The position numbers and the translations under genes were made by a program. Positions 8,795 through 27,633 of a DNA stretch of 27,633 bases are shown here, piece by piece. The notes under the pieces were generated by a model that did not search any database, had not been told where the DNA came from, and worked only from the letters and a program-made list of their open reading frames with translations. Source of the DNA: a virus; the IMG/VR virus record IMGVR_UViG_3300037264_003206, positions 1 through 27,633 of that record, one strand, 5' to 3'. Position 1 is the stretch's first letter. Each line of letters starts with the position of its first letter.

Positions 8795-9322
8795 TTAACG
8801 ATCATGAACCGAGTTCACTATTTCAACTAATTTACTTATATCTGGATCAACATCATCATTATTTTCGACAATCACCCGGTGATCACATAACTTACTAAAC
8901 CTAGGCAAACCATCTGTGAATTTATCAATATATTTCTGTTCAACTTCTGTATCTAGTTTATCCTTAGTCCTCCGTGAACAAACATCTAAATTAGCCTTAA
9001 CATACACATATGCCACAGAATGCTTGAATCTCTTAGCTAATTTAAAATAAGGCTCCATAACTTCGTAGGTAGCACAACATGTATCATAGACTATAATTTC
9101 ATTTTTACCTAACTCTTTAATCTTTTCTGCTAATAAATCAAGTGAAACCTCCCAAGCTGCAATATCTTGGTCATGTTGTTCTTCTTTCTTGAGTTTATCG
9201 TATGAATCATCTCTAAAGGTCTTCGGACTAATAACCAATAGTTTTAGGCGGACCTTTTCTAATAAGCGAGAAACCACAAATGATTTTCCAGAAGACGGCA
9301 TTCCAGACATAAATATTACCAT
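8795..9322 (-). CDS. P-loop kinase (AAA_33-like)
   Basis: The 175-residue protein begins with a strand and Walker A motif, FMSGMPSSGKS (residues 4-14), and has a second strand IIVYDTCC (about 96-103) that could carry the Walker B Asp. Later come VAYVYVKANLDVCSRRT, whose RR pair resembles the lid region of small-molecule kinases. The size fits nucleotide-type or polynucleotide-type kinases of the AAA_33/zeta-like group. The substrate cannot be read from sequence, and polynucleotide 5' ends, a modified nucleotide or a small metabolite are all possible. No Shine-Dalgarno sequence is obvious before ATG 9322. It sits directly upstream of the glycosyltransferase gene. Confidence 0.75.
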   Translation of the reverse strand: MVIFMSGMPSSGKSFVVSRLLEKVRLKLLVISPKTFRDDSYDKLKKEEQHDQDIAAWEVSLDLLAEKIKELGKNEIIVYDTCCATYEVMEPYFKLAKRFKHSVAYVYVKANLDVCSRRTKDKLDTEVEQKYIDKFTDGLPRFSKLCDHRVIVENNDDVDPDISKLVEIVNSVHDR

Positions 9323-11639: not shown

Positions 11640-12092
11640 ATGAAAAAGAAAAGCAAATTACAAAAGAAAAAGGATGACATTAATTCATCTTTATGGAGAC
11701 GCAAAGCTGACAAATTATGGAAAGAACTTGTATCAAACAATTATGCAGGTAGATGTGCGATATGTGGTAGTGCCGACTGGACACAGTCACATCATCTCAT
11801 ACCGCGAGAAATGCGTTCACATCGTCATGTAATAAAAAATGGCATGCTATTATGTGCGACTCACCATCGTTTTAGTTTCGAATTATCGCCACATAAGGCA
11901 CCAATAGCTTTTATAAAATGGATGACCACACATCATAAAGAAACTTGGGATTGGCTATTAAAGCAGGAGCCAACGCGTCATAACACAATATCATTTAAAG
12001 ACGTTGCGCAAAAATTGGAGATCGAGTATGCCATGGAAAGACAAAGAGAAAATAAAAGCTTATCAGAAGAAACACAGAATGATGCATCATGA
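11640..12092 (+). CDS. HNH endonuclease
   Basis: A 150-residue HNH nuclease. The motif is clear: CAIC (39-42), HH (51-52) as the first catalytic His region, Asn67, and LCATHH (71-76). It would nick or cut double-stranded DNA using a metal ion. The N-terminus is lysine-rich and helical and probably binds DNA. The gene stands on the plus strand between minus-strand blocks and is followed by two more HNH genes, so this looks like a mobile endonuclease island. Unlike the next two, its HNH core is of a different subtype. Its last 65 bases overlap the following gene. Confidence 0.85.
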   Translation: MKKKSKLQKKKDDINSSLWRRKADKLWKELVSNNYAGRCAICGSADWTQSHHLIPREMRSHRHVIKNGMLLCATHHRFSFELSPHKAPIAFIKWMTTHHKETWDWLLKQEPTRHNTISFKDVAQKLEIEYAMERQRENKSLSEETQNDAS

Positions 12093-12444
12093 TGCATATC
12101 TAAAACGCGCATTAATGTATAGGCAAAATAATAAGAATAAAATTAATAAATATCATAAACAACTTAGGTTCGATCTAAAAATCAAAGCATTTGATGCTTA
12201 TGGGGGCCGTAGATGTTCTTGGTGTGGCGAAACTGATATTATAGTATTAACTATTGACCACATAAACAATAATGGATCTAGACATTTAGACAAAGGAGGA
12301 TATAGAATACAAGGTTCGCGAATCTATACTTGGTTAAAAGTCAATCATTATCCATCTGGCTTTCAGATATTGTGTATTAATTGTAATTTCGCTAAATCAT
12401 TCTATGGAGTAATTCCAACAAATAGAAAGAACTTGTGTCGATGA
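12028..12444 (+). CDS. HNH homing endonuclease (first of paralogous pair)
   Basis: This 138-residue protein starts MPWKDKEKIKAYQKKHR, a start common in phage HNH homing endonucleases. GGAG seven bases before ATG 12028 supports that start over an ATG further upstream. The nuclease core has CSWC (63-66), TIDHINNNG (75-83) with the catalytic His, and LCINCNFAKS (115-124). The protein is basic. The DNA coding for the CSWC region is almost identical to that of the next gene. It overlaps the previous HNH gene in a different frame. Confidence 0.85.
   Translation: MPWKDKEKIKAYQKKHRMMHHDAYLKRALMYRQNNKNKINKYHKQLRFDLKIKAFDAYGGRRCSWCGETDIIVLTIDHINNNGSRHLDKGGYRIQGSRIYTWLKVNHYPSGFQILCINCNFAKSFYGVIPTNRKNLCR
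12181..12240 (+). repeat. direct repeat copy 1 between HNH genes
   Basis: This 60-base segment matches 12596-12655 at 58 of 60 positions (changes at a-to-g and c-to-t). Identity drops sharply outside it, pointing to recent gene duplication with local conversion. Confidence 0.9.
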
Positions 12445-12451
12445 TAATCAT

Positions 12452-12922
12452 ATGAGAAAAAATGATTGGCTATTATTAACACCTAAACAGCAATTGACTT
12501 ATAAAAATAAAATGAAATTATACTTTCAAAAATACAGATTGAAAAATCAGGAGAGAACTAATAAAATATCGAGATTAAGTCGCCTAAGAACCAAAATCAA
12601 AGCATTTGGTGCTTATGGGGGCTGTAGATGTTCTTGGTGTGGCGAAACTGATATTGCTACATTAACTATTGATCATATAAATAATAACGGCGCAGACCAT
12701 CGAAGAAAATTAAGTACCAATAAACATAATACAGACCATCGAAATAACGGCGGCGGTACACGAACATATAACTGGTTAAAGGAAAATAACTACCCATTGG
12801 GATTTCAAGTTCTATGTTTTAACTGCAATTTTGCTAAAGCACAAAACAATGGCATGCTGCCAAAGAATAGACAGGACAAATACAAAAACCATCAATTAAT
12901 GCCCGTTAGACTCACAATCTAA
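12452..12922 (+). CDS. HNH homing endonuclease (second of paralogous pair)
   Basis: This 156-residue paralogue of the preceding protein has CSWC at 60-63, LTIDHINNNG at 71-80, and LCFNCNFAKA at 121-130, plus an insertion of about 16 residues between the His and the second Cys pair. The N-terminal halves have diverged much more than the nuclease core, as expected if target recognition has changed. The last eight codons and the stop lie inside a perfect inverted repeat (12894-12934) that probably terminates transcription. No ribosome binding site is evident before ATG 12452, seven bases after the previous stop, so coupling is likely. Confidence 0.85.
   Translation: MRKNDWLLLTPKQQLTYKNKMKLYFQKYRLKNQERTNKISRLSRLRTKIKAFGAYGGCRCSWCGETDIATLTIDHINNNGADHRRKLSTNKHNTDHRNNGGGTRTYNWLKENNYPLGFQVLCFNCNFAKAQNNGMLPKNRQDKYKNHQLMPVRLTI
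12596..12655 (+). repeat. direct repeat copy 2 between HNH genes
   Basis: Second copy of the 60-base segment at 12181-12240, encoding the zinc-knuckle part of the HNH core. Confidence 0.9.
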
Positions 12923-12934
12923 CGGGCATTAATT
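12894..12934. terminator. perfect inverted repeat between convergent genes
   Basis: Left arm 12894-12910 and right arm 12918-12934 pair perfectly over 17 bases around a 7-base loop (ctcacaa). It sits between the convergent HNH gene (stop inside the right arm) and the lipoprotein gene ending at 12936, and so suits a bidirectional terminator. A U-tract is weak on both strands, so it might act as an RNA-stabilising structure instead. Confidence 0.75.
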
Positions 12935-12935
12935 A

Positions 12936-13466
12936 TTAACCAATCCAAACATTCTTTCTGTCTGGTGCGCCAAAAACTGGCTCAGTCTTATCAAGGAACG
13001 ATTTAGTTCCACTAGAAACGCCACTAAGAAACGCCTTAATAAATTCAACATGCTCTGGCTTTAAGAATGTATTACTATCAGGTATTGGCAAATAAATATC
13101 CAATACCGTAGCAGCGGCGACGACAGTAAGCTTGATCTCATTAGGCACATCTTTGAATAATGACGAATTAATAAATTCACGTACCTCAGCTGAAGATGGC
13201 AACTTATCGCCGCTAAGATATGGCAATAGTTGGTCATTAATGTTTCGATTAATAGCTGTTGCGGCTTCTTTTGCAGCGTCTGGTTGCTTTTCGGCCCATT
13301 TCTTCAAACCAAGTTCGGTGCCGCTCTCAGCAGCTGCCTTAATTATGACAACAATCTTGTCCTTATTTTTCAGGATGGTTTCCTCAATCTTAGCGGTTTC
13401 ACCACAACCTGACGTTAACAACATTGGCACCATGGCCAAAACCACAAGAGCGTTTCGTCTTTTCAT
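12936..13466 (-). CDS. predicted lipoprotein
   Basis: A 176-residue protein with a lipoprotein signal peptide: basic start MKRRNALVV, hydrophobic core, then LLTSGC with the lipid-acceptor Cys at about residue 21. The mature part is helical and Ala-rich (KIVVIIKAAAESGTELGLKKW) with a second hydrophobic patch (LTVVAAATVLDIYLPI) that might associate with membrane. I know no family. ATG 13466 is chosen because GGAG lies six bases upstream. The ATG at 13472 directly abuts it. It is the last gene of a minus-strand cassette containing another lipoprotein. A role in lysis (outer spanin) or superinfection exclusion would fit but is not shown. Confidence 0.75.
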   Translation of the reverse strand: MKRRNALVVLAMVPMLLTSGCGETAKIEETILKNKDKIVVIIKAAAESGTELGLKKWAEKQPDAAKEAATAINRNINDQLLPYLSGDKLPSSAEVREFINSSLFKDVPNEIKLTVVAAATVLDIYLPIPDSNTFLKPEHVEFIKAFLSGVSSGTKSFLDKTEPVFGAPDRKNVWIG

Positions 13467-13476
13467 GTCCATCTCC

Positions 13477-13881
13477 TTAAGCTATTATGAGGCCAAGTAG
13501 CCCCATTGCCAAACGCGTGCCAACTTGTTCCGCGAACTTCAACCAAAACTTTCTAGTCTCTTGAATCTGCCTTGCGAGTTCTGCCAATTTAATCGAATCT
13601 TCTTTGAACTTCTCAACTAATTCTGTAGTTTCGAGGGCGTCATAAATAGTTACTAATGCCTCAAAATCTTTACCATCTCGTTTTAACTCAAGAAAGCGCT
13701 TAAATGTATCTTTACCAATTTGTGCAAGACTTTGCTGGTTAATTTTAATTAGCTTTACAAATTCTTCTTTAATTTCAATTAAAATTTCTTCTTCGGGTGG
13801 AATTACAAATTTGATCTTACCGTCATCCTTTAGTGCATTCTCAAGGACACGGATCAATTCTTGAATCCATATTATATCCAT
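13477..13881 (-). CDS. hypothetical protein with helical body and hydrophobic C-terminus
   Basis: A 134-residue protein composed almost entirely of charged helix, with EEEILIEIKEEFVKLIK and repeated heptad-like Leu/Ile, so a coiled coil is plausible. It ends in a hydrophobic stretch GTRLAMGLLGLIIA at the very C-terminus, like a tail anchor. Flanked on both sides by lipoprotein genes, it could be the membrane partner of one or both, but this is inference. No ribosome binding site better than AGAG is seen before ATG 13881. The downstream lipoprotein's GGAG lies immediately after its stop codon. Confidence 0.7.
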   Translation of the reverse strand: MDIIWIQELIRVLENALKDDGKIKFVIPPEEEILIEIKEEFVKLIKINQQSLAQIGKDTFKRFLELKRDGKDFEALVTIYDALETTELVEKFKEDSIKLAELARQIQETRKFWLKFAEQVGTRLAMGLLGLIIA

Positions 13882-13883
13882 TA

Positions 13884-14165
13884 TTAATTCTCTGTCCCTG
13901 GTGTGTCTAATGTAGTCTCGCCCATATTAGTAGATGGCTTCCAATTATTTAAAATCTTATCTAACGATTCAAAATCCAAAGCACAAGCCCTAATCATTGA
14001 TTTATTCTGTTCTGGAGTAGGATCATTCGATGGATCAGCATCGTCCATGCGCTTAACATATGAATATAATTGCGCATGTTTGTCTTTGACCGACACACGA
14101 ACGGCTTTTGATGTACCACACCCAGCCACAAATACCAGTAGTAAGATTGCCCCAATCTTCTTCAT
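13884..14165 (-). CDS. small predicted lipoprotein
   Basis: A 93-residue protein with a classical lipoprotein signal: MKKIGAILLLVFVAGC, with the lipobox VAGC and acceptor Cys at 16. The mature part is short, hydrophilic, and Pro/Asp-rich in the middle (DDADPSNDPTPEQN), resembling small phage lipoproteins such as outer-membrane spanin subunits in size only. ATG 14165 overlaps the upstream stop as TAATG. It lies beside a gene encoding a C-terminally anchored helical protein and a second lipoprotein. Confidence 0.75.
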   Translation of the reverse strand: MKKIGAILLLVFVAGCGTSKAVRVSVKDKHAQLYSYVKRMDDADPSNDPTPEQNKSMIRACALDFESLDKILNNWKPSTNMGETTLDTPGTEN

Positions 14166-14428
14166 TATGTCACTTTCTTGGTTATGATCATTGTCTGCAA
14201 AATCTGCACCGGCTCAAATCCACTGCTCGCTTCCCTTTCTAAATACTCTCTAATATTTGGTTCGTCAGTTGTATTAGGATTAGTTGAATCTGCGATTACA
14301 CGGAATTCTGTATCGAATTTAAGCATTGCATTAATAGGAAGATTTAGCTCAGTACCACGCCTTACCACGCGGCCATCTGGTAAGACATTAAGGTAAGCTA
14401 ATTCGGCCAGGTGAACTTCAACGGCCAT
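14165..14428 (-). CDS. hypothetical protein
   Basis: An 87-residue soluble protein, unknown family. It begins with a beta-rich half (AYLNVLPDGRVVRRGTELNLP) and ends QTMIITKKVT. Both ends overlap their neighbours as TAATG junctions, so it is translated between the FEN-type nuclease gene and the small lipoprotein. GAGGTG lies just before its start inside the nuclease gene. The position at the switch from replication to lipoprotein genes gives no clear functional clue. Confidence 0.7.
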   Translation of the reverse strand: MAVEVHLAELAYLNVLPDGRVVRRGTELNLPINAMLKFDTEFRVIADSTNPNTTDEPNIREYLEREASSGFEPVQILQTMIITKKVT

Positions 14429-15306
14429 TATTCACCTCCATTGGTAAGATTCAACTTGAACGGCAGAATCACTCTAGTATATTCGCCAAGTAACCCACGC
14501 ACCTTGTATTTTTGAATAATGCTCCTCAAAACGGTCTGGTCAAATTTCAAATCTTCTGATATTACTTCGGTTATATAATGCATATTCTTCAATAGATATG
14601 GACATAATGATAAATCAATTAATGCTCTATTGCGCAGATATGTTTCTATATCATTTTCTTTAAAAAATTCACTACGTTTCTTTAAATTCTCAACCAATAT
14701 CTTAGCTCTGACCGGCCCAATTTGGTAATATCCACTAATATTATCGGCACGTTCTCCCATAAAGCATTTTAATTCTACGACATCAAGATCTTCCATACCA
14801 TGTTCAAATAATTGCTTATCTTTGGCGAGTGGGTTGAATATAGACACATTTTTATATTGATGCGGTATTTGTTTAAAATCACCGTCGCTGCTAACTATAA
14901 TAATTTTAGATGCATTCATTTGTTTACAAAACGCATAAATCAGATCATCTGCTTCTTGTTTTTCAATTGCATAAGATCTAGCATTAATATGAGGTACCAT
15001 TTCGGCTAGTATAGTTGTGCAACGCTCTAATGAGTCATCAATGCGTGTCTGTTCGTGCTTACCATCATGAGTAAGATCGCGCCCTTCTTTGTATTCAGGC
15101 AATATTCGCTTTCGCCATACCTGAGCTTTAGGACAGTCCCAAATAAAATGGATGTTTCTGGGCTTGAAACGATGAATATAACTACTCAAAAACCTAAATA
15201 ATATTACAATATCTTCGATACTTTGATTATTTCGATCTGATAGGTTGGCATATATTGCTCTATATATGGCATTTCTAGTATCAATCAACATGTGCTCATA
15301 TGGCAT
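14428..15306 (-). CDS. FEN-type 5'-3' exonuclease (T4 RNase H / Pol I 5' nuclease family)
   Basis: A 292-residue structure-specific 5' nuclease that removes RNA primers or 5' flaps on the lagging strand. Acidic metal-binding residues lie in LIDTRNAIYR (Asp9), IWDCPK (Asp57), KQEADDLIY (118-121) and SSDGDFKQI (139-147). GERADNISGYYQIGPVRA (184-201) holds the last Asp and the helix-three-turn-helix that grips DNA. RRKILPEYKEGR-like sequence (65-76) forms the helical arch with its Arg and Lys. No polymerase domain is fused. It would act with the small family A polymerase at 17159-18310 and the SSB encoded just upstream. The start is ATG 15306. A later ATG at 15291 is possible. Confidence 0.9.
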   Translation of the reverse strand: MPYEHMLIDTRNAIYRAIYANLSDRNNQSIEDIVILFRFLSSYIHRFKPRNIHFIWDCPKAQVWRKRILPEYKEGRDLTHDGKHEQTRIDDSLERCTTILAEMVPHINARSYAIEKQEADDLIYAFCKQMNASKIIIVSSDGDFKQIPHQYKNVSIFNPLAKDKQLFEHGMEDLDVVELKCFMGERADNISGYYQIGPVRAKILVENLKKRSEFFKENDIETYLRNRALIDLSLCPYLLKNMHYITEVISEDLKFDQTVLRSIIQKYKVRGLLGEYTRVILPFKLNLTNGGE

Positions 15307-15321
15307 ATGATTAATCCATAA

Positions 15322-15364
15322 TGATGGCTAGGCGACGATCAGGATACTCGTCGCCTAGCCATCA
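15322..15364 (-). terminator. strong hairpin after the SSB gene
   Basis: The arms 15322-15338 and 15348-15364 pair perfectly over 17 bases with a 9-base loop, and the stem is GC-rich. It starts three bases after the SSB stop codon and lies before the nuclease gene. There is no U-run, so it may be a partial terminator or an mRNA-stabilising structure that favours SSB over downstream genes. Confidence 0.75.
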
Positions 15365-15367
15365 AAA

Positions 15368-16435
15368 TTATTTCTTTCTTGACCTGATTGATCCAAGAAG
15401 CTCTTGTAATTCTGGATCATCAGCTACTGTTGCGGTAGTTGTTTTTGCCTCTTGAGTCGGGGCTGAAACCGGGGCTGAAGCCTGAGCCTTAGCAGGCTGC
15501 GTTGTCGGCGTTGCTTCTCGTTTGGATGTCGATTGGGTCGGCTGCTTTCGTTCCTCGTTTATAGACCTCGGTGGGCTTTTAATTGGCGCTACAGCTTCAG
15601 CGTCATCGTCTGTATTAATCTCTTCGGCAGCATCATCAACACCAGCGCAAATATTCTCGATCTTCTTTACAAGCATGGTTAACTTCTCATTATTACGTTC
15701 AGCAAATCTGCTTTGCAGAACAATCCGTTTGGCAAGGATCTCCTGGATTGCTTTATCATCAGGCTCATTATTTTCTGCAACCATCAGCGGACTGAACGAC
15801 TTCGGCAAGAAAGACGATTCAGAATAATCGTTCCAATCACCCTTCTTCTGGGCGATTAACTTAAATGTATAACCGCCTTCATAAGGATGGTAGAAAATTC
15901 CATGCGCCTTCTGGTCAAGTTCATCACCAGCATCATCGCTGCTTATGCATTCATCCATCTTGCGCCACAGTGTAATAGGTAGATTAAACCACTTAACCTT
16001 ACCTCGCAACTCCTCTGGGTTTGTCTTCACGTCAAGGAAATAAACATTAACTGCGAATCCCTGACGAGCAAGATACTTTCGAGCAAGCTGGCTCTTTGCG
16101 TCCTTATCTGGAGCACTCTCCATCAGGTCAAAACCCAATTGACAAAGCTGGCATTCTTTCCCATCATGTACACGCGGACACTCATGGCGTTCCTTCTGAA
16201 ACCAATGGACACCATTCTCATAATACCACAGTTCATTATCAACTTCGCAGACACCACTTGCGCACTTATCTCCTTCGTGGAGTTCAGGAAGAACTCGAAA
16301 ATAATAAATGAGCTTGGTAGTATGATCCTTAATCTGAGGCGGCGAAAATTGGTCTGGATCTTTACGCCTAGTTGTGCGCTCCTCCTGCTTCTTGCGCATT
16401 CTCTTCAGTAATTCATCACGCGATGGCATTGCCAT
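15368..16435 (-). CDS. single-stranded DNA binding protein, T4 gp32-like
   Basis: A 355-residue SSB. A basic N-terminus (LLKRMRKKQEERTTRRK) matches the cooperativity region of gp32. The zinc site is visible as HECPRVHDGKECQLC (H84, C86, C95, C98), followed by an aromatic-rich OB core including FAVNVYFLDV, KWFNLPITLWRKM and GYTFKLIAQKKGDW. Residues 280-345 are a low-complexity Ala/Pro/Thr/Gln linker, and the end is DDPELQELLGSIRSRKK. The acidic region therefore lies before rather than at the very tail. It coats single strands at the fork and recruits recombination and replication partners. The start is ATG 16435 with GGAGG at 8 bases. It is followed by a strong hairpin and neighbours the UvsY-like gene, as in a T4-like recombination system. 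Confidence 0.85.
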   Translation of the reverse strand: MAMPSRDELLKRMRKKQEERTTRRKDPDQFSPPQIKDHTTKLIYYFRVLPELHEGDKCASGVCEVDNELWYYENGVHWFQKERHECPRVHDGKECQLCQLGFDLMESAPDKDAKSQLARKYLARQGFAVNVYFLDVKTNPEELRGKVKWFNLPITLWRKMDECISSDDAGDELDQKAHGIFYHPYEGGYTFKLIAQKKGDWNDYSESSFLPKSFSPLMVAENNEPDDKAIQEILAKRIVLQSRFAERNNEKLTMLVKKIENICAGVDDAAEEINTDDDAEAVAPIKSPPRSINEERKQPTQSTSKREATPTTQPAKAQASAPVSAPTQEAKTTTATVADDPELQELLGSIRSRKK

Positions 16436-16447
16436 GGTCTACTCCTC

Positions 16448-16924
16448 CTATGCTTGTTTTCTCTCTTCCCGCTTGAAGCCAGCCAGGCTTCGAAGGTGAT
16501 CAGACTTACGTTGAAGAGCATTAACAACAGCTCTAATCTTATTCTCGGTTTTCTCTTCTTTAATAATCCTAGCCAGCAAGAGTGTCATGCGATCGTCACC
16601 ATTAATAATATTATTCATCACTTGCACACTTGTCTTTATTCCCTGTTGTCTCGAACGCTCAACTATCTCGTTGATTATTGTGGCTTTGGTTACCTCCTGT
16701 TCTGCCTCCAACACGGAGACTGTGGCACGTTGTTCCGCTAACAACTGATCAAAGAAGCAAAGCATTTCAGGCAATTCCGCCAATTGGTTCTCAAGCCCAT
16801 CAAAATCAATAGTTAAATCTGATCTAACATCACGTTGAAACAAACTACGATTAGCAAGATTAATACGTATATTGAAAATATACTCGGCAATTTCTGGACT
16901 AATATGTCGCGAAACCCAACTCAT
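16448..16924 (-). CDS. UvsY-like recombination mediator (tentative)
   Basis: A 158-residue, almost wholly helical protein. The stretch from FFDQLLAEQRATVSVLEAEQ through INGDDRMTLLLARIIKEEK to VNALQRKSDHLRSLAGFKREE follows the arrangement of phage UvsY-type mediators: long heptad helix, short insertion, then helix ending in ALQ-R...L. Those load RecA-like recombinase onto SSB-coated DNA. Support also comes from its place directly upstream of the SSB gene and a few genes downstream of recA. The assignment is from pattern and context. A structural or coiled-coil protein of another kind remains possible. ATG 16924 has GGTGAG just upstream. Confidence 0.55.
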   Translation of the reverse strand: MSWVSRHISPEIAEYIFNIRINLANRSLFQRDVRSDLTIDFDGLENQLAELPEMLCFFDQLLAEQRATVSVLEAEQEVTKATIINEIVERSRQQGIKTSVQVMNNIINGDDRMTLLLARIIKEEKTENKIRAVVNALQRKSDHLRSLAGFKREERKQA

Positions 16925-16970
16925 GTCTCACCTCATCATGTCAGATACGTGATGACGTGAGCGTCGAGGA

Positions 16971-17162
16971 TTAATGGCGGTGGGCGCGTTGCAACAATCG
17001 GTCTAACTCAATCGCTTGTTGTGTTATCGCTTCACTCGTTGCCCGTTCTTCCGCTTCTCTTACTCGACGCTCGCGCTCTGCTTTCCTCTGCACTTGTCTC
17101 TTTTCTCTTACTCGTTGCTCTCTTCTTTTCTTTTTTCTCTCTTCTTTACGCCGCTTACTCAT
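16971..17162 (-). CDS. tiny highly basic helical protein
   Basis: A 63-residue protein of which roughly half is Arg, Lys or Glu (MSKRRKEERKKKRREQR), predicted as a single long charged helix. It has no aromatic residues, membrane segments or cysteines. The strong purine bias of the coding strand produces the long opposite-strand open frames seen here, which are shadows. It is translationally coupled to the PolA-like gene by an ATGA overlap. It might bind nucleic acid or a polymerase, but this is inference and a non-coding explanation is not excluded. Confidence 0.5.
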   Translation of the reverse strand: MSKRRKEERKKKRREQRVREKRQVQRKAERERRVREAEERATSEAITQQAIELDRLLQRAHRH

Positions 17163-18310
17163 CTATCTACTCGCAATCTTTTCCATCTTCGCCACCGATT
17201 GCCGACACTAATTTTGATCGGCATACGTGGTGCTGGATCTACCCAATCATCCAGCGGTTGCAACATAATTTTAGATACTTCACTGATAATTTGCGGCACT
17301 GTTTCTTCATTGCAACACATAATTATAGAGTCATGTACCTCGGCAAACAGATATTTAGGAAATCGATCATAAATTTTAACTAGAGCGGCCTGCATCGCAT
17401 GAACTACACTACCTTGAAATTGTGCATTAAACACACTAAGCTCATTATCCGCCTCGACTATAAAACGCCGCCCTAAAATGCTCTCTAGGTACCCCTGACT
17501 TCGCATTAATTTGAGCCGATCAATCATCCATAATTTAAATTTAGGAAATATCTCTATGATTGGATGATTTACATTTAAAGCATACAATGCTTTAATCAAC
17601 TCACTCTTACATTGATCTCTATTGTATTCTGGGTCATGTAGATATGATTCAACATAAGCATATGGGTCAGATTTTATAAACGACGCCTCCATCCGCTGAT
17701 CGCCAGACATATAAGCTGCCATCCGTAAATCAGCGGCAAGCCAATCAAACTGGATAAATATATCAAGGTCATCGTGGATTGGTCTAATATCATATTCATC
17801 CGTAGTGCCTTGAATATTAAAACCAAGTGTCTTGGATCTACCCGCAAAGGTATCAAGACTATACTTGGTTTGTAAAATCTTATGATTGTGCCGTATCTTC
17901 TTCGATTCAAGTGCTGCATAAACAAACGCAGCGTTTGCTAATAACTTTTGCCATTGTTGTGGACTTATTTTACATAATTCTAATGCCAATTTCAATAAAG
18001 TCTTTCGACCATGCTGGATGTCTTTAGGTTTAATGTGCAATTCAGGTATTGCATAGTCGATAACAGAGCCATTTGGTTCAAGATTAAAATTCAATATATG
18101 TGATTTATAATCATTAATACACAGATCTCCCGATCCTGATATCATCAACTTAAATTTAAACATTGCTTCCTTTATCTGTTTGATGGTTGAACCCATGCCA
18201 GATAGATAAAATTCAAAGAAATCAATTGAATTATCCTGATATATAATAAGCGATTGTAGGGGTCGTGGTGGAGCATGAGCATGATCAAATAGTGTTAGCA
18301 CATGGCGCAT
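17159..18310 (-). CDS. reduced family A DNA polymerase with degenerate exonuclease region
   Basis: A 383-residue PolA-type polymerase, much shorter than Klenow-sized enzymes (about 600). Motif A is FIQFDWLAADLRMAAY (Asp189). Motif B is RDQCKSELIKALYALN with R231, K235 and Y243 kept, but the Phe position is Ile239 and the usual Gly after Tyr is Ala244. Then follow ILGRRF (278-283), FQGSVVHAMQAA and motif C EVHDSII (His326, Asp327, Ser328). The fingers are shortened by some 20 residues after motif B. Residues 1-120 vaguely trace a 3'-5' exonuclease fold, but the metal-binding acids are gone. ATG 18310 lacks a clear ribosome binding site. It may repair gaps with the FEN nuclease rather than be the main replicase, since a DnaE gene is also present. 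Confidence 0.85.
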   Translation of the reverse strand: MRHVLTLFDHAHAPPRPLQSLIIYQDNSIDFFEFYLSGMGSTIKQIKEAMFKFKLMISGSGDLCINDYKSHILNFNLEPNGSVIDYAIPELHIKPKDIQHGRKTLLKLALELCKISPQQWQKLLANAAFVYAALESKKIRHNHKILQTKYSLDTFAGRSKTLGFNIQGTTDEYDIRPIHDDLDIFIQFDWLAADLRMAAYMSGDQRMEASFIKSDPYAYVESYLHDPEYNRDQCKSELIKALYALNVNHPIIEIFPKFKLWMIDRLKLMRSQGYLESILGRRFIVEADNELSVFNAQFQGSVVHAMQAALVKIYDRFPKYLFAEVHDSIIMCCNEETVPQIISEVSKIMLQPLDDWVDPAPRMPIKISVGNRWRRWKRLRVDR

Positions 18311-18344: not shown

Positions 18345-18689
18345 TCAACTCTTAGGTAAAAACGTCTTTGAATTAGGATTACGTTTACCACCCTTACGAA
18401 GCTTAATAGCAAGATCATCCTTTTCACCAGGTTGGCGCATTCCGGCATATGGATCATCATTGGTGAGTTTATATAAATGCATATCACGTCGCCTACCTTT
18501 TGTATCCAAATATCCACGTCCACGGACATATGCTATTGGTGGCGTGACTCCAATAAAAGTCAATTCTGTATCAACACCAGAGCATTTAGGGCATTTTACT
18601 ATTGGTTTTTCATTCATTCCGTGGCTAGTTTCAAAAACAAATGGTTTTTGATCAGTTCCACAAGTCTTACAATGGTAATTATATCTCAT
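18345..18689 (-). CDS. FmdB-like zinc-ribbon protein
   Basis: A 114-residue protein starting MRYNYHCKTCG and continuing to VKCPKCSGV, a CxxC pair separated by about 30 residues as in FmdB-type regulatory zinc ribbons. The C-terminal half is basic and unstructured-looking (YVRGRGYLDTKGRRRDMH, then KLRKGGKRNPNSK). ATG 18689 is preferred over upstream starts because GGAG lies six bases before it. The stop of the tube-like gene is two bases upstream. Its role is unknown. Location between a tail-tube-like gene and PolA does not decide between replication and virion functions. Confidence 0.75.
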   Translation of the reverse strand: MRYNYHCKTCGTDQKPFVFETSHGMNEKPIVKCPKCSGVDTELTFIGVTPPIAYVRGRGYLDTKGRRRDMHLYKLTNDDPYAGMRQPGEKDDLAIKLRKGGKRNPNSKTFLPKS

Positions 18690-18691
18690 TG

Positions 18692-19063
18692 TTATCTCCT
18701 GCGTGCCCATGTATAGGACACTTGTGCACGCACTACATCTAGATCAATCATACGCGCCCTACCGTAATTTATATATATGATTTTGGCATTCTGCATATAC
18801 CACTCTTCTATAATTTGTCCTCCATGATTTATCAGGCTAAGAATAATATCGCACTCTTCACGTTTCTGGAGCCACTCTTTAGTGCAGTCTAGATGTCTAG
18901 TTGGTATTTCTAATGAAACATTCTGCCATCGCGGCTTGCCGTCAGATTTTAACAAAGTCTTCCCTGCTACTTGTTCTTCTTTAACTGGAAACTTAAAATT
19001 AGGTCTCTCGGCATAATAGAGAACTTGCCTTTGACTATTACTAAATATTATATGCCAATTCAT
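18692..19063 (-). CDS. tail-tube-like (gp19-fold) small protein
   Basis: A 123-residue protein. The segment CDIILSLINHGGQIIEEW, followed by MQNAKIIYINYGRARMIDLDVVRAQVSYTWA, follows the recurrent pattern of T4-type tail tube proteins (hydrophobic strand, short turn with Gly, then E-x-W, then paired strands ending in a Tyr-x-Ala strand). Earlier, KPRWQNVSLEIP fits the matching strand before the central loop. Tube proteins are usually about 160-200 residues, so this one is short, which may make it a tube cap, a baseplate piece or an unrelated barrel. ATG 19063 overlaps the helicase stop (ATGA). The position within the replication genes is unusual for a virion protein. Pattern match only. Confidence 0.5.
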   Translation of the reverse strand: MNWHIIFSNSQRQVLYYAERPNFKFPVKEEQVAGKTLLKSDGKPRWQNVSLEIPTRHLDCTKEWLQKREECDIILSLINHGGQIIEEWYMQNAKIIYINYGRARMIDLDVVRAQVSYTWARRR

Positions 19064-20523
19064 TTTCTCTTTTTACTCTTCTCCCTATCCTTATTTATGG
19101 CCTCATTATCTGGTCGTACAATTGTATCAATAAACCCTTGCTCACGCATAACCATGGTCTCATAGTTGATCGTACTGCCAATACTCTTAAACTTCGGACC
19201 ATTTCGATTTTTAGCAATATACAATCGACAACGAGCTGATGTGACTGGGCGTTCTTGAATTTGCTCTTTAGTGTCACCTTGAATTATCTCTCTACCAGAT
19301 TCATACTCTTGCTTGGTCTGGTTAATAGTCACAACATAACTCAATGGCATTGCTTTACCGAAACTTTCTGCCATCTTGTTTAATTCGATCACATTGTCAC
19401 CACCTTTTGTATTAAGTGGATCCATGCCAGATCGATTCGATTGACTAGCGGTCACACCAAACACATTCTCTTTTACTGCAAGTCTTGCAAATTCGGTACT
19501 AACCCGCTTCTGGCGCAAATATTCATCTTCACGTCCACTAGCTTTCCTCGGTATCATTAATTCAAGATAATCAATAATAACAACATCCATTATTATACCA
19601 TGAACACGCCTTAGTACATCTAATAATGCATGAACAGTATCAACACTTATTTCATCAGGCGGATATTCTGCTAGAATTAATTCAGCACCATAGGTTGCCT
19701 TCACGGCACGCAAACAATCAATTATCCGTAGCTTATGCGTTAATCTATCACGAATTCGCAACTCCGTAAAACCACCAAGATACCTATATCCAACTTGGAG
19801 TTTAGGCATTTCACACGTAACATGCAAAACATTCTTTCTTCTACGAATATTGGCAATGCCGGTATGATTTAATGTAATTGATTTACCAACCCCTGTTGGA
19901 GCCAAATAACATAGAGTGTCGCGCCGAGTTGGACCACCATAATTTAGACACGAATCTAAGGAAGCAAAACCAGTCGTAAGCTTTTCTTCTTTATCTTCTA
20001 CGAACAATTGTTCATAATCATCAAACATCCACAACAGATCGGTGCCAAAATTTACTATCTTTCGTGCGTCCTCAATAACTTGTTCTTGGTATTGATATTC
20101 ACCGCGCTCATGAGCATCAAGCGCATCCTTACTATATAATAAACTATACTGTTTCCGTCTAGCCCATTCAATAAGACGTTCGGTGATTATTGGGATCTCA
20201 CGCGGGTCCGACTCTCGTTTAATTAATGACAAGACTTCGTCATGAGGATCATCTGCGGTTAAAGTCTGTTCGGCAATATCAATGCACATTGGTCTAGTAA
20301 TAACTAAATTGTGTTTGTCATGATAAAACTTGATTATATTAAATATAAATTTAGTTTCATACCTATCAAAATGATCATCGCGTAAGTAACCTATTACCGC
20401 CGAAAAGAATTCAGGTTGATCAAATGCTAATGATATAATTGCTACTTCTTCGTGCGGACCAAATACATGCCGCTGCTGTTGTTGTTCATCGGTAATAGTT
20501 CCTTCCTGTATTTCTATTGTCAT
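19060..20523 (-). CDS. replicative DnaB-type helicase
   Basis: A 487-residue hexameric helicase of the DnaB/gp41 family that would unwind the fork. The N-terminal helical domain (about 20-160) is followed by a RecA-type ATPase: Walker A APTGVGKS (208-215), CEMP (about 237-240), Walker B VVIIDYLEL (314-322), and GVTASQSNRSGM (about 362-373). The C-terminus is Lys-rich (DREKSKKRK). It should associate with the primase at 1172-2227. The start ATG 20523 overlaps the upstream gene as ATGA, and the stop overlaps the tube-like gene in the same way, so translation of the three is coupled. Confidence 0.9.
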   Translation of the reverse strand: MTIEIQEGTITDEQQQQRHVFGPHEEVAIISLAFDQPEFFSAVIGYLRDDHFDRYETKFIFNIIKFYHDKHNLVITRPMCIDIAEQTLTADDPHDEVLSLIKRESDPREIPIITERLIEWARRKQYSLLYSKDALDAHERGEYQYQEQVIEDARKIVNFGTDLLWMFDDYEQLFVEDKEEKLTTGFASLDSCLNYGGPTRRDTLCYLAPTGVGKSITLNHTGIANIRRRKNVLHVTCEMPKLQVGYRYLGGFTELRIRDRLTHKLRIIDCLRAVKATYGAELILAEYPPDEISVDTVHALLDVLRRVHGIIMDVVIIDYLELMIPRKASGREDEYLRQKRVSTEFARLAVKENVFGVTASQSNRSGMDPLNTKGGDNVIELNKMAESFGKAMPLSYVVTINQTKQEYESGREIIQGDTKEQIQERPVTSARCRLYIAKNRNGPKFKSIGSTINYETMVMREQGFIDTIVRPDNEAINKDREKSKKRK

Positions 20524-21269
20524 AAAGATCCACTAGATCCACTGTCGGACCCCTCAGAACAATACGACTGCTGTCTTAATGTTGCTCGTGCAACCGCACG
20601 CCCTAGAAAGTTTACAACAAGTGGGAGTGCCTCACATATCTTACACAAATCAATTTCTGGGTATCTAATTATTTGATTATAGGTCATATCACCACGATCT
20701 CCAACTGTCATGTGTTTCCCCGGTCGTGGCGTAATCGTAAACACATACACCCATTGATTGAGATCTGCGTTCCATTCAATGCCATCGATTCTAAAGCCTT
20801 CGAGGCGTCCAAGCACTTCAGCCGACTCTCTCAAATACACAAACTCATTATGACCAAAACGCGGCACTGTGGTTATAGTCATTTGTTTAAATCTGACTGG
20901 CGCTGGTGGGTCTTGTGGTTGTTGTGGCTCAACACAATTATCAGCAAGTTGTTTTTGGGCATCCTCTAATTCCTTGCTAAGGACACGAATCTGAATATCA
21001 AGCGCTTCACATAAAAATAAGACCATTGATTCGCGCAATTCAATCGGTGCCAATGTTAATCGCATTGGGGGATTAAAAGAATTATCAGTGCTCTTTTTAA
21101 ACTCACGACTGAAAGTATAAACATACTCATTTAAAGCTGGTTCATACCTAACTCCAACAATTACGATTGGTTCAATAAATCCTCTAACTGCCGACGCTTT
21201 AATATAGGCTACTTCGTTAATTGCAAAACGAGCTTGCGACGGCCTAAGTATCGTTCTGTCACCGGACAT
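20520..21269 (-). CDS. hypothetical protein with two repeated domains
   Basis: A 249-residue protein built from two similar modules. Residues about 12-95 (ARFAINEVAYIKASAVRG, VRYEPALNEYVYTFSREF) match residues about 135-225 (PRFGHNEFVYLRESAEVLG, IEWNADLNQWVYVFTI): each has a strand, a loop with Asn-Glu, and a second strand ending LN-x-W/Y-VY-F. A Glu/Gln/Pro-rich linker and a Ser/Gly-rich tail (SEGSDSGSSGSL) lie between and after them. I know no family. Internal duplication with barrel-like strands suggests a binding role, perhaps DNA or a replication partner. It is placed between RecA and DnaB with TAATG and ATGA overlaps. Confidence 0.7.
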   Translation of the reverse strand: MSGDRTILRPSQARFAINEVAYIKASAVRGFIEPIVIVGVRYEPALNEYVYTFSREFKKSTDNSFNPPMRLTLAPIELRESMVLFLCEALDIQIRVLSKELEDAQKQLADNCVEPQQPQDPPAPVRFKQMTITTVPRFGHNEFVYLRESAEVLGRLEGFRIDGIEWNADLNQWVYVFTITPRPGKHMTVGDRGDMTYNQIIRYPEIDLCKICEALPLVVNFLGRAVARATLRQQSYCSEGSDSGSSGSL

Positions 21270-22369
21270 TATGAATCGCCTGACTCGCCTGACTCGCCTG
21301 ACTCAATATCCTCAGCATCATCAGTATCGCCATTGCCAACAAACACTTCCTCATTAGATTTGGATAAGAGTTTCTCTCTGAGTTTCATATTAAGCTCAGC
21401 CATTACGTCTTTATTCTCCTCAAGATATTTCAAGGACGCAAGCCAGCCCTGACCGATCTTCTGGTTGTTATATGAAAACCATGATCCTGACTTGTCAATT
21501 AATTTAAACTTACAGCCAAGATCGAGAAGACTACCAGCCTCGGATATGCCTTTACCAAATATGATGGCAAATTCGGCATTTCTAAATGGGGGCGCGACTT
21601 TATTCTTGATCACCTTAACCATCGTAACATTTCCAATAATTTGTTTAGCTCCATCAACTACTTCGGATATGCTCATCTTTCTACGGATATCCATTCTAAC
21701 GGACGCATAATATCGCAGCGCCCGACCACCAGGAGTTGTTTCACGATTTGCACCAGGCATCATCATGCCAACTTTTTCTCTGATCTGATTAATAAAAATG
21801 AGACAAATATTCGACTTATTAACCTCTGAGGACAGCATACGAAGTGATTTGCTCATTAACCTAGCTAGAGGTGCCATTTGTTTGGCATCAATTTCACCAT
21901 CTAGTTCTTCTTTCGGAACCATTGCGGCTACTGAATCGATTACAATCACACCAACCAAATGCGATTGAATCAATTTTTGACATATTTTAATCGCTTGTTC
22001 ACCGTGATCGGGCTGAGCGAACAACAAAGAATCTAAATCAATACCAATATTTTGTGCATAAGTTGGGTCAATCGCATTTTCAGCATCAATATAGGCAGCT
22101 ATTCCACCTTGACGCTGACATTCTGCTACTATAGTTAATGCTAAGGTTGTTTTGCCACTCCCCTCAGGGCCAAAGATCTCAATAACTCGCCCTTTTGGAA
22201 CGCCACCAACACCAAGTGCATAGTCAAGAGCAAGACAACGGGTTGATATTGATTCACATTTTAATACACCACCCGTAAGAATACCTTGTCTAATAGCGTC
22301 GTCACCAACTTCATTATGAATAGATTTTAAAACCTCTTGTAACTTATCATCTGGTTTCTTCTTTGCCAC
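21269..22369 (-). CDS. recA: RecA recombinase (cellular type)
   Basis: This 366-residue recombinase resembles bacterial RecA rather than T4 UvsX. Walker A is GPEGSGKTT (about residues 67-75), then AYIDAENAIDP (the MAW-like region), FAQPDHGEQAI, Walker B VIVIDSVAAMVPKEE (about 141-155), FINQIREKVG, and the DNA-binding loop NRETTPGGRALRYYASVR with MDIRRK. RecA forms filaments on single-stranded DNA for strand exchange. The C-terminus is acidic and ends ESGESGESGDS, coded by a 9-base repeat. I chose GTG 22369 (MAKKKPDD) because GGAG lies seven bases upstream. The ATG at 22375 is only one base from it. It probably works with the UvsY-like protein and SSB. Confidence 0.95.
   Translation of the reverse strand: MAKKKPDDKLQEVLKSIHNEVGDDAIRQGILTGGVLKCESISTRCLALDYALGVGGVPKGRVIEIFGPEGSGKTTLALTIVAECQRQGGIAAYIDAENAIDPTYAQNIGIDLDSLLFAQPDHGEQAIKICQKLIQSHLVGVIVIDSVAAMVPKEELDGEIDAKQMAPLARLMSKSLRMLSSEVNKSNICLIFINQIREKVGMMMPGANRETTPGGRALRYYASVRMDIRRKMSISEVVDGAKQIIGNVTMVKVIKNKVAPPFRNAEFAIIFGKGISEAGSLLDLGCKFKLIDKSGSWFSYNNQKIGQGWLASLKYLEENKDVMAELNMKLREKLLSKSNEEVFVGNGDTDDAEDIESGESGESGDS
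21276..21302. repeat. three tandem copies of a 9-base unit in recA
   Basis: The unit tcgcctgac is repeated three times without mismatch and encodes the Gly-Glu-Ser repeats of the RecA tail. Confidence 0.9.
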
Positions 22370-22661
22370 TTTCATTCTCCTTAAGCCCGGTTAAATGATA
22401 TGCCTTCAAATCACTTAAAGTTCTAATACGTCTAATCATATTCATCGTAGCATTTATATCATAATTAGCCACATGTTGAACATCATCGTGTGGGATTTGT
22501 ATTAGAGTTTGGTCTTTAGCTAATAATAAGACTTTATCGCCATTGACACCAGCAACCACGGTCCAGACACCACGCGGATCGGCTGGTTTGCTATTTGGTC
22601 CACTCATCCATACGATACTGCGCGTAGTCTTAAGCATTACTAAGTCAAATCGTCTAATCAT
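22347..22661 (-). CDS. hypothetical protein, possible SH3-like barrel
   Basis: A 104-residue protein, unknown family. MIRRFDLVMLKTTRSIVWM, WTVVAGVNGDKVLLLAKDQTLIQIPHDDVQHV and a helical C-terminus (RRIRTLSDLKAYHLTGL) suggest a small beta-barrel followed by a helix, similar in style to the 10149-10475 protein. ATG 22661 has no obvious ribosome binding site. Its last 23 to 29 bases overlap the recA gene, and the recA ribosome binding site lies inside it, so recA translation is probably coupled to it. It is the first gene of the long minus-strand replication operon. Confidence 0.65.
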   Translation of the reverse strand: MIRRFDLVMLKTTRSIVWMSGPNSKPADPRGVWTVVAGVNGDKVLLLAKDQTLIQIPHDDVQHVANYDINATMNMIRRIRTLSDLKAYHLTGLKENESGKEETR

Positions 22662-24718: not shown

Positions 24719-25126
24719 ATGAATAAGAAGATAGAAATAATTAACTTAGACTTGGGGATCGATCCTGAACAGACGATCAAAAAACCAACCATATCACAAC
24801 CTACCATCGACAAAATAGAGAAAGCAATTGACTTAAATAAAAAAGAACAAGTTGCGTTCAAAAAAGTGATTGAAAAAAGACAACAGAAGCAAACACATAG
24901 TGATATTATTGAAACATTGTTGGCCACGCTATTGTCTGCCGCTGCCAATAAACACGAATTATCAAGTTCAGAAATCTTGGAAATAACTAAATCGAGTAAT
25001 CTATCTGGGACTATGTTACGATTACGAAATCTAATTAAACGTCGCGGCAACGATTATAAAATTATAAGTAGACGAGAAGATGGTATAGCCTACTATTCAC
25101 TTGAAATTAACCAACCGCTTAATTGA
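24719..25126 (+). CDS. hypothetical protein, possible winged-helix DNA-binding protein
   Basis: A 135-residue protein. Residues about 60-130 (ETLLATLLSAAANKHELSSSEILEITKSS, then LRNLIKRRGNDYKIISRREDGIAYYSLEI) follow the helix-helix-helix-wing order of a winged helix domain. The N-terminal part is Lys/Gln-rich and helical. It could be a phage transcription regulator, which would suit its isolated plus-strand position and the divergent 30-base promoter region. No ribosome binding site is evident at ATG 24719. Its last 30 bases overlap the 3' end of the convergent oxidoreductase gene. The winged-helix call is from pattern only. Confidence 0.6.
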   Translation: MNKKIEIINLDLGIDPEQTIKKPTISQPTIDKIEKAIDLNKKEQVAFKKVIEKRQQKQTHSDIIETLLATLLSAAANKHELSSSEILEITKSSNLSGTMLRLRNLIKRRGNDYKIISRREDGIAYYSLEINQPLN

Positions 25127-25999
25127 TGACCCTAAATCCATAAAATCATCATGTTGTGCATTGCTGCCGACACAGGTAATCCCTGCATTTTCAAATATTG
25201 TCAAATCAGGCACTTCACCAATAGGAATTACCTCATCAACCCGCAATACTTCAACTATGTCCAACTGATAACCTAGAAATTTTCCAAAGTATAAATATGG
25301 ATTCTCAATCGCCTCAAATGTATTAAAGATATAACTATCCGACCATTTGGTGACCTTATAAAACTCAATATCTAGGTCACTGACCAATGTCTGTTCAGCG
25401 CCTTCAAGATCAATCTTGTTGCTCTGAATCCTGTAAGAACATACTGCCTTGGCTTTTAATGTTGGTGCATTAATACCACAGAATTTATATAAAGCATTAA
25501 GCGGGATCGTGCTAATCATGCGCTCGTAATTAATCGTGCTACCGTCTGACAAACAAAGTGTTCTGGCCTTCAAATCTATACTTACTAACTTCTTTTGCGC
25601 CCCAACTTGTATCTGATTCCAGAATTGTTCGTTTAGTTTAGAGTATAACGTAATTGCCCTAATATTATACACAGAGAACGTAGTCTTTAACAGACTATCG
25701 ACAATAATGCGCGTATTATCATAGACTTTCTTGATATACGGATCAATAACAACTGGTTCGGTTGAATTAGTTAATTGCCCATGGTATGAGAATAATCGTT
25801 TATAAATTATAATTGGCCCACTTAAACCAAGTTCAGCACTTACAATATCAATATCTTTATCACATCGAATAAAATCATCAGCTAGTGGTATATCAAATGA
25901 GTAATAACGCGATTTCTTAAAGGGAATAAAAGACCAATCTTGCCCAAGTAATCTTTTTGCTATGCAGGCGATTAATCCACTACCTAATATAATATTCAT
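25097..25999 (-). CDS. FAD/NAD(P)-binding oxidoreductase-like protein
   Basis: A 300-residue protein starting MNIILGSGLIACIAKRLLG, a dinucleotide-binding beta-alpha-beta start of the GxGxxA type. Further, YERMISTIPLNALYKFCGI resembles the conserved (I/V)STIP strand of UDP-galactopyranose mutase and amine-oxidase-type flavoproteins, and the end GITCVGSNAQHDDFMDLGSSIKRL resembles their C-terminal flavin-contact segment. The substrate is unknown, and the usual acidic residue after the first strand is not evident. In some phages such flavoproteins act on modified DNA bases, but this is not shown here. It is translationally coupled to a zinc-knuckle gene upstream (ATGA). Confidence 0.65.
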   Translation of the reverse strand: MNIILGSGLIACIAKRLLGQDWSFIPFKKSRYYSFDIPLADDFIRCDKDIDIVSAELGLSGPIIIYKRLFSYHGQLTNSTEPVVIDPYIKKVYDNTRIIVDSLLKTTFSVYNIRAITLYSKLNEQFWNQIQVGAQKKLVSIDLKARTLCLSDGSTINYERMISTIPLNALYKFCGINAPTLKAKAVCSYRIQSNKIDLEGAEQTLVSDLDIEFYKVTKWSDSYIFNTFEAIENPYLYFGKFLGYQLDIVEVLRVDEVIPIGEVPDLTIFENAGITCVGSNAQHDDFMDLGSSIKRLVNFK

Positions 26000-26334: not shown

Positions 26335-26642
26335 GATTTAGCTGTCCAATTGTCCTCTGATTGTTTACTAACTTGATCTTGTTTTGGGGTCTCTTTTGAA
26401 TTCCTATCAAGAGCACGCACCTGTACTCGCTCTATTAACTCTTTCATACATTTTATGCAAATATCTAAATCTAACCAACGGCGATCGATCTTTTTAATTC
26501 CTGTTTTACCAATTAAACGATCTACCTCAACTAAATCAAATTTGGCACTATAATATTCAAATTTGTCAACATGCGTCGAGTTACATAAATCGCAAGTTAT
26601 GCCATTTTGCTTTTTGGTGTGTCCATCGACGTGCACTACCAT
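26331..26642 (-). CDS. small Cys-rich hypothetical protein
   Basis: A 103-residue protein with CDLC at about residues 17-20 and ICIKC at about 61-65, probably binding zinc. The C-terminus is polar, Lys/Gln/Ser-rich, and disordered. ATG 26642 has GAGG seven bases upstream inside the DnaE gene and overlaps it by seven bases, so it is co-transcribed with the polymerase. I do not recognise a family. Confidence 0.65.
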   Translation of the reverse strand: MVVHVDGHTKKQNGITCDLCNSTHVDKFEYYSAKFDLVEVDRLIGKTGIKKIDRRWLDLDICIKCMKELIERVQVRALDRNSKETPKQDQVSKQSEDNWTAKS

Positions 26643-27633
26643 AACAGATCCTCACCAATGTCTTTCTTCATGGTTGCTTCATTTATCTCAACCTTATCGT
26701 CGATCTCAACCATCTTATTTAGTAATGGTATAACTACGCTACCATTTGCTATTCTAAATGAATTACGCTCACTATTATACACAACATCGACCTCTACGCC
26801 TGCCCCCTCATGAAAAACTCTCTTATCGCATGAATTATAAACATCGGCCCATACAACTACATCGGTAGTTTGGACACCATCGGTCAGGTGCATTATATAA
26901 AAGAAACTACCACTCGCTTTAGCACGCTTGGTTTCTACCTTTTCTACAACAGCTTCTATTTTAACAATTATGGGTTGGTCACTTGCCAAACTTAATTCTT
27001 TTGCTTTCTTAATCGTATTACCACGCGTATGATACATCGTTAATGGTGAACTCCAATAATAACCTAACATGCTCTTTTCAATCATTAGGCGTTCGGTAAT
27101 ACTATAATCATTAAATAAATTTATCACCTGTTCTCTGGTTAGAATAATCTTAGGACGCCATTTAAGTAGCCCAACTGGAATTTTCTTCTTTTTCGGATTA
27201 AGCTGTTTATATTCGGCAATATGTTTGGCACGATCGTTAAGAACATTTTTCTCTGGCCATTCAAATTCGGCATCGACCTGCTTTTTAAGTTCACGAATAT
27301 CTGGGCCTGAGCAATATTTATACTTATACCATACCCATAAACCACGACGGTTTGGATGTAGTTTATCAAACGCGCCTAATTTAATTAAACGCTCAAAGAT
27401 TATTTTATGTTTACCGCATTTTGATATCATATCATCAATACTATCAAATGGGCCTGGTATTTTGGTGAAAGCAATAGCAGCTTTCTCACCAACACCCTTA
27501 ATCGCTTTAAGACCAGGGATTACTTTACCATTTAATACTGTAAATTCTTGGGTTAAATTATTAATATCAATCGTTCCGAATTCCACACCATCTAATTTGG
27601 CTGCACTCATATAATGACCAAGTTTATCACGGT
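26636..27633 (-). CDS. dnaE: DNA polymerase III alpha subunit, C-terminal part (partial)
   Basis: The frame is open to the right edge and codes for the C-terminal third or so of a DnaE-type replicative polymerase. GLKAIKGVGEKAA and the following FDSIDDMISKCG form the helix-hairpin-helix region (residues about 33-70 from the first Met at 27610). EKSMLGYYWSSPL matches the EKEMLG-type motif of DnaE. An OB-fold follows (GSFFYIMHLTDG, VVVWADVYN). The catalytic palm with its Asp triad lies outside the window, so activity is not visible. Upstream of the first Met the frame continues as LGHY, so the true start is beyond the edge. Three coupled genes follow: two zinc-knuckle proteins and an oxidoreductase-like one. 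Confidence 0.85.
   Translation of the reverse strand, partial: RDKLGHYMSAAKLDGVEFGTIDINNLTQEFTVLNGKVIPGLKAIKGVGEKAAIAFTKIPGPFDSIDDMISKCGKHKIIFERLIKLGAFDKLHPNRRGLWVWYKYKYCSGPDIRELKKQVDAEFEWPEKNVLNDRAKHIAEYKQLNPKKKKIPVGLLKWRPKIILTREQVINLFNDYSITERLMIEKSMLGYYWSSPLTMYHTRGNTIKKAKELSLASDQPIIVKIEAVVEKVETKRAKASGSFFYIMHLTDGVQTTDVVVWADVYNSCDKRVFHEGAGVEVDVVYNSERNSFRIANGSVVIPLLNKMVEIDDKVEINEATMKKDIGEDLLW

Follow-up and report, generated by a model that had tools for sequence, protein, structure and literature searches.

Family A DNA polymerases are built as a right hand of thumb, palm, and fingers, and this architecture is treated as the minimum for synthesis by the family. The phage T7 member, gp5, is a proofreading replicase whose thumb holds thioredoxin. 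Actinobacterial PolA2 (APEX) is an accessory family A polymerase with a vestigial 3′-5′ exonuclease and no 5′ nuclease domain; in the excerpt of its description (PMC12926913), it is known from Actinobacteria only, carries a clamp-binding motif, and is not reported to have lost its thumb. Among large phages, about half of the marine jumbo phage cluster PGC_A carry DnaE (PF07733), as given in the excerpted survey (PMC9123017).

The window analyzed here is an entire IMG/VR record, 27,633 bases long and probably one piece of a phage genome, and it encodes a 383-residue family A polymerase (the mini polymerase). It resembles Pol I and its Klenow fragment (PolA1 of PMC12926913) in palm motifs A, B, and C and in overall fold, and differs from the 605-residue Klenow fragment in missing about 104 thumb, about 80 exonuclease, and 17 finger residues. 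With human pol ν and pol θ, among its top Foldseek matches, it shares the family A fold and an exonuclease-like domain without proofreading; unlike the mini polymerase, both keep a full thumb and extra inserts, and identity is only 12–13%. Like T7 gp5 and the T7-type PolA of jumbo phages (PGC_D in the excerpted PMC9123017), it is a phage family A polymerase, but in contrast to gp5 it lacks a thumb and proofreading, and DnaE is the likely replicase. The likeness to PolA2 (accessory enzyme, vestigial 3′-5′ exonuclease, no 5′ nuclease domain) is a comparison by description (excerpt of PMC12926913). The phages themselves are, like PGC_A, large and uncultured, and they carry DnaE as about half of PGC_A do, whereas the excerpted account of PGC_A (PMC9123017) mentions neither a small PolA nor a split DnaE. 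Motifs and fold place the protein among the family A polymerases, but it lacks the thumb that defines them, and the open-licence papers searched contained no account of a family A polymerase without a thumb.

The mini polymerase gene and its family

The gene lies on the minus strand, from an ATG at 18310 to 17162 plus the stop codon, and the frame 17159–18310 is open on that strand only; the sequence-only reading had the coordinates right and left out the strand. Pfam DNA_pol_A (PF00476) matches the protein at 5.8e-12 (45.7 bits, cut-off 34.3), with the HMMER match covering residues 253–374 only, and all 34 aligned members match the same model at E values up to 0.5, the best being 4e-20. Together with the family alignment, an AlphaFold2 model built from the alignment of 34 (pLDDT 93.2, pTM 0.92), and a residue map to E. 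coli Pol I, this identifies a genuine family A polymerase whose catalytic core is intact. Its layout comprises an exonuclease-like rump (residues 1–112), a connector helix (119–136) replacing the thumb, the palm, reduced fingers, and a basic C-terminal tail.

Searches with the single protein or with two sequences returned only one true relative, 80% identical and syntenic. Further members were recovered with degenerate DNA patterns for motif A and for the stretch FN-x3-QG[ST]V-x-HAM. The latter scan gave 45 stretches, a few already seen, and every one encodes a protein or fragment that a profile built from the first six members matches with an E value of 2e-54 or lower. Three matches to the motif A pattern (L012–L014) are other PolA proteins, not members. 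The family numbers at least 34 distinct full-length proteins of 363–404 residues as aligned, the start codons of some being uncertain, with 29–80% identity to the window protein, on IMG/VR contigs of up to 395 kb, several of them above 230 kb.

By tblastn with three divergent members, no member of the family was found among 50,697 GenBank phage records; the hits, if any, were ordinary PolA matching part of the query at roughly 22–27% identity. The UnionJack, Arthrobacter, and fecal “phage” records in GenBank hold ordinary full-length or bacterial PolA where inspected and are not members. The FN-x3-QG[ST]V-x-HAM pattern had zero matches in bacterial and archaeal genome contigs, and a viral structure library held no same-size relative matching across the whole protein. 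In the collections covered by these searches, members appear to be limited to uncultured phages.

In a tree, the family stands apart from seven of eight reference PolA proteins on a branch of 3.2 with support of 99/100; for the eighth, L006, the placement is meaningless after bad trimming (25% filled, branch 6.4). Values of dN/dS are 0.026–0.074 for most pairs with unsaturated dS and 0.165 for one pair; the window protein and its nearest relative give 0.046, with dS near saturation. These ratios point to strong selection to keep the catalytic site. A frameshift truncation or other artefact is ruled out, as the identical architecture recurs in 34 distinct proteins, and chance is no explanation because these homologues have a common architecture, invariant catalytic residues, and strong purifying selection.

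Catalytic core and lost parts

Residue equivalences were taken from an hhalign map of the window protein to E. coli Pol I. In the first half of the map, R158 corresponds to R668, N165 to N675, Q167 to Q677, D189 to D705, D194 to E710, R196 to R712, R231 to R754, and K235 to K758. The remainder pairs I239 with F762, Y243 with Y766, A244 with G767, N295 with N845, Q299 with Q849, E324 with Q879, H326 with H881, and D327 with D882. The protein is thus like Pol I at R668, N675, Q677, R754, K758, Y766, N845, Q849, and H881/D882. The catalytic aspartates of motifs A and C (D189 and D327) are present in 34/34 members, and the equivalents of R668, Q677, D705, R754, K758, N845, Q849, and D882 are invariant in the same 34. 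The H881 equivalent is kept in 32/34 and that of Y766 in 30, with Asn in the other four.

Asp189 and His326/Asp327 are therefore retained as the sequence-only reading had it, mapping to D705 and H881/D882, and Ala244 does stand in place of the Gly at G767. The differences from Pol I extend across the family: the G767 position is never Gly (Ser in 24 members, Ala in 6), and the E710 position, about which that reading was silent, is Asp in 33 of 34. Ile239 does replace the usual Phe/Tyr at F762, but the weight placed on it fails because the position varies (Leu 14, Phe 11, Ile 7, Met 1, Asn 1); judged from the alignment, Ile239 is not diagnostic. The idea of a reduced, possibly active PolA is well founded, with motifs A and C retained and the catalytic and dNTP-binding residues invariant in 34/34, and by these residues the mini polymerase is probably active.

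The losses are large. Foldseek matches the model to Klenow (8oo6, TM 0.69 by query length), pol ν, and pol θ, and some 600 alignment columns for 383 residues therefore indicate large deletions. In the thumb region, every member has 24–27 residues from Y131 to G157, compared with roughly 130 in Klenow, so that about 104 are missing, and the model shows one helix in the thumb’s place; the comparison assumes that the VY-x2-LE-x-RG motif (near 130–139) is the VLSRIERNG segment of Klenow, with Y131 at L537. An unmodified Klenow profile aligns from residue 143 only and a thumb-deleted profile from residue 120. Length and the model together make the shortage of thumb residues certain, while the exact left border of the deletion is an estimate because the cut in the thumb-deleted profile was placed by the analyst. 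As modeled, the enzyme is essentially thumbless, which is more unusual than the features listed in the sequence-only reading, where the thumb loss was missed.

The fingers are also reduced. Y243 (Y766) and W261 (801) are 18 residues apart (16–20 in the family), compared with 35 in Pol I, and the 17 fewer residues come close to the deletion of about 20 first proposed. The exonuclease-like N-terminus spans about 112 residues against about 194 in Klenow, so about 80 are missing, and forms a truncated beta-alpha, RNase-H-like rump. Folded alone, residues 1–112 give a pLDDT of 89, and their best PDB matches include RNase AS and the exonuclease-like domains of pol θ and Pol I, the latter two at probability 0.96–0.98 and E 0.03–0.04. 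Neither hhalign against the Klenow exonuclease nor a profile search matched the rump by sequence, so its identity as an exonuclease comes from fold. No DEDDy exonuclease acid is conserved throughout the 34-member alignment at the expected places, in agreement with the earlier statement that these acids are gone, and H71, motif-aligned to D424, is never acidic. Proofreading therefore appears to be lost, as read from the alignment. Compared with Klenow, the predicted structure shows neither an intact exonuclease with its acids nor normal fingers.

Loss of the thumb and part of the fingers would be expected to damage normal primer-template binding, and it is conceivable, if improbable, that the family A fold has been repurposed for a non-polymerase or template-independent function, such as end tailing or service as a structural replisome subunit. 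The Asn in place of Y766 in 4/34 members and the G767 position that is never Gly would suit such a change. Against it, the catalytic and triphosphate-binding residues are all invariant and selection is strong.

DnaE, the flap nuclease, and the replication block

The minus-strand frame at 26636–27631 (26636–27633 in the sequence-only reading) is a DnaE gene (DNA polymerase III alpha) truncated where the record ends, so that only the C-terminal part is encoded; Pfam HHH_6 (3.7e-14) and a PHROG DNA polymerase profile (1.5e-20) confirm the assignment made earlier, and an 87% identical relative sits in a longer DnaE frame. DnaE (PF07733) is found in 21 records, about 10–14 kb upstream of the mini polymerase. 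Records without this match have at most about 10 kb of upstream sequence, except G001 and G017. G001, a close relative, carries the DnaE C-part, and with G001 and the window itself DnaE accompanies the mini polymerase in 23 of the 24 records that reach its place. The DnaE C-genes that were read contain both catalytic motifs, PDxDxDF and KFDxLG, and the replicase is most likely DnaE. To speak of two replicative polymerase families was an overstatement, as only DnaE looks replicative. The pairing itself is unusual within the sample: PolA was absent from all seven GenBank DnaE phages sampled; the alignment-based search of these seven had no positive control.

The sole true exception, G017 (153 kb, linear), has the mini polymerase and the flap nuclease and no detectable DnaE or family B polymerase, and it is what would speak for the mini polymerase as the sole replicase of its phage. 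This is very improbable. G017 is possibly incomplete, the other records that reach far enough carry a DnaE with catalytic motifs intact where read, and the copying of 100–395 kb genomes without a thumb or proofreading is implausible. The regular presence of DnaE upstream (23/24) and of the flap nuclease downstream (35/38 records) likewise argues against a sole replicase.

The DnaE genes have features of their own. DnaE is in two genes in L068, L071, L073, and L076–L079 (records G009, G004, G016, G025, G028, G002, and G015): an N-gene, which holds the PHP region and ends near ...SPSRGGNMLKVSME, and a C-gene with the PDxDxDF and KFDxLG motifs. The break, at which no intein halves were seen, falls just ahead of the first catalytic motif. 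Intein-like insertions were noted by eye in the C-gene at L003:1-2620, L068:3048-6842, and L078:12583-16170. That of L003 precedes CYQEQ and has a LAGLIDADG-like stretch, and those of L068 and L078 separate RYCFN from SHA, close to the site of the split DnaE intein of cyanobacteria, and have a nested frame of about 273 residues resembling a homing endonuclease (all by eye). In record G018 (231,672 bases), a further match resembling DnaE lies at 86927–87589, some 80 kb away from the main DnaE genes; this phage may have a second DnaE.

Downstream of the polymerase on the same strand is a solo 5′-3′ exonuclease or flap endonuclease (FEN-like) of 292 residues (14428–15306, minus; Pfam 5_3_exonuc_N 8.3e-22, PHROG exonuclease 2.7e-27). 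This 5′ nuclease is a separate gene, not fused to the polymerase as in canonical cellular Pol I. Of 38 records, 35 have a flap nuclease (PF02739) about 2 kb downstream of the polymerase; in the remaining three the sequence stops within 2 kb. According to the excerpted PMC12926913, a solo 5′ nuclease is usual in bacteria without canonical Pol I.

In the related blocks inspected, the recurring order is DnaE, small genes, RecA, a 249-residue protein, DnaB, zinc ribbon, PolA, a 158-residue protein, single-stranded DNA binding protein (SSB), and FEN, with DnaE missing from the G017 block. In the window, all on the minus strand, these include RecA (21269–22375; Pfam RecA 5.4e-102), a DnaB-like replicative helicase (19060–20523; Pfam DnaB_C 3.2e-10, PHROG DnaB-like helicase 6.2e-57), an FmdB-type zinc ribbon protein encoded just ahead of the polymerase (18345–18710; NCBIfam TIGR02605 at 1e-5, below cut-off, and synteny), the conserved 158-residue protein directly after it (16448–16924; PHROG 2058 at 9.5e-10 and synteny), and a gp32-like SSB (15368–16435; Pfam gp32 8e-12, PHROG SSB 7.7e-13). 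The 158-residue protein is a candidate partner of the polymerase. It occupies the site where T4-like phages might have a recombination mediator, and a UvsY-like role would be a guess. A ligase is found in at most 7 of 16 long records, among them all six above 230 kb, and a DnaQ-like exonuclease scores above cut-off in 7/16.

Other observations concern the block and the rest of the window. A 300-residue protein (25097–25999, minus) with a dinucleotide-binding-like N-terminus is conserved in the replication block of most contigs and has no Pfam, NCBIfam, or GenBank phage match. In L074 (record G006; 12577–14739 and 15089–17108), the RecA frame is 721 residues long, a possible insertion, and DnaB is split over two frames. 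Three consecutive small frames at 11640–12922 (plus) with CxxC and HNH-like motifs are probably HNH endonucleases (by eye), and other contigs have a homologue at a different place in the block. The window holds a ribonucleotide reductase large subunit (2251–4593, minus; Pfam and PHROG) and a frame resembling ThyX thymidylate synthase (5676–6806, minus; by eye), so the phage seems to produce deoxynucleotides itself. A 635-residue protein (6850–8757, minus) with weak glycosyltransferase model matches adjoins a small kinase-like frame at 8795–9322.

A proposed role in gap filling

The mini polymerase may be the gap-filling half of a “split Pol I” that works with the separate flap nuclease in Okazaki maturation and repair, a proposal held at about even probability. 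DnaE would make the bulk of the phage DNA, and the flap nuclease would remove RNA primers or displaced flaps, leaving short gaps. The mini polymerase, active but distributive and of low processivity, would fill these gaps, and ligase would seal the remaining nick. Polymerase and flap nuclease would jointly cover what cellular Pol I does with 5′ nuclease and polymerase in a single protein, in Okazaki-fragment maturation and excision-type gap repair. The thumb’s grip on duplex DNA may be replaced, speculatively, by SSB, by the 158-residue neighbor, or by the conserved basic C-terminal tail. The gap-filling role is strengthened by the flap nuclease found downstream wherever the contig reaches, and short synthesis rather than genome replication fits an enzyme with no proofreading acids and no thumb.

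Several considerations temper this proposal. In B. subtilis, maturation of Okazaki fragments can proceed with DnaE and FEN and no Pol I (PMC13082043), so phage DnaE might not need the mini polymerase, and by this comparison the argument from necessity for a fill-in role appears weakened. A thumbless polymerase might be unable to bind primer-template, and host Pol I could do the fill-in job instead.

With RecA and DnaB no farther away than FEN, the neighborhood suits a recombination role nearly as well. A polymerase that extends RecA-made recombination intermediates or synthesizes across lesions, rather than maturing Okazaki fragments, is unlikely but deserves weight. RecA and DnaB are fixed neighbors, proofreading is lacking, reduced fingers and the E710-to-Asp change could loosen the nucleotide pocket, and the top Foldseek matches are the related pol ν and pol θ, which are repair enzymes. 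The block nevertheless contains the entire set of replication genes, so that closeness to RecA is no specific sign of recombination, and no sequence feature specific to bypass was found in the mini polymerase. Where the sequence-only reading proposed gap filling or lesion bypass, gap filling stands as the best reading through the flap nuclease linkage; lesion bypass is possible, with no specific case for it.

B. subtilis DnaE extends primers for PolC in a hand-over, and the mini polymerase could similarly lengthen primase RNA by a short stretch of DNA before handing over to DnaE. A short-synthesis enzyme would suffice, and a DNA primase (Toprim; 1172–2227, minus; PHROG DNA primase 6.6e-30) shares the replication region with DnaB. 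No specific tie to primase is apparent, however; it lies about 15 kb from the polymerase in the window, compared with 2 kb for FEN, and this role is rather improbable.

Gap filling beside the flap nuclease can also be put in a more specific form, which is offered tentatively and at somewhat less than even probability. The family would be an undescribed family A subfamily that carries out templated synthesis without a thumb, with the primer-template gripped in trans by the 158-residue protein, SSB, or the flap nuclease, or by its own basic C-terminal tail, and would act as a lagging-strand finishing module of large phages that replicate with DnaE.

A conserved family of about 380 residues that keeps the catalytic contacts without a thumb makes the question of the smallest working Pol I directly testable, and the mini polymerase could yield a compact gap-filling enzyme. 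For the phages, it means that one lineage of large, uncultured members combines genes for a DnaE replicase, a predicted Pol I-like fill-in enzyme, SSB, and a flap nuclease in a single conserved block, with ligase in its longest contigs, and that the seven cultured DnaE phages sampled differ from this lineage.
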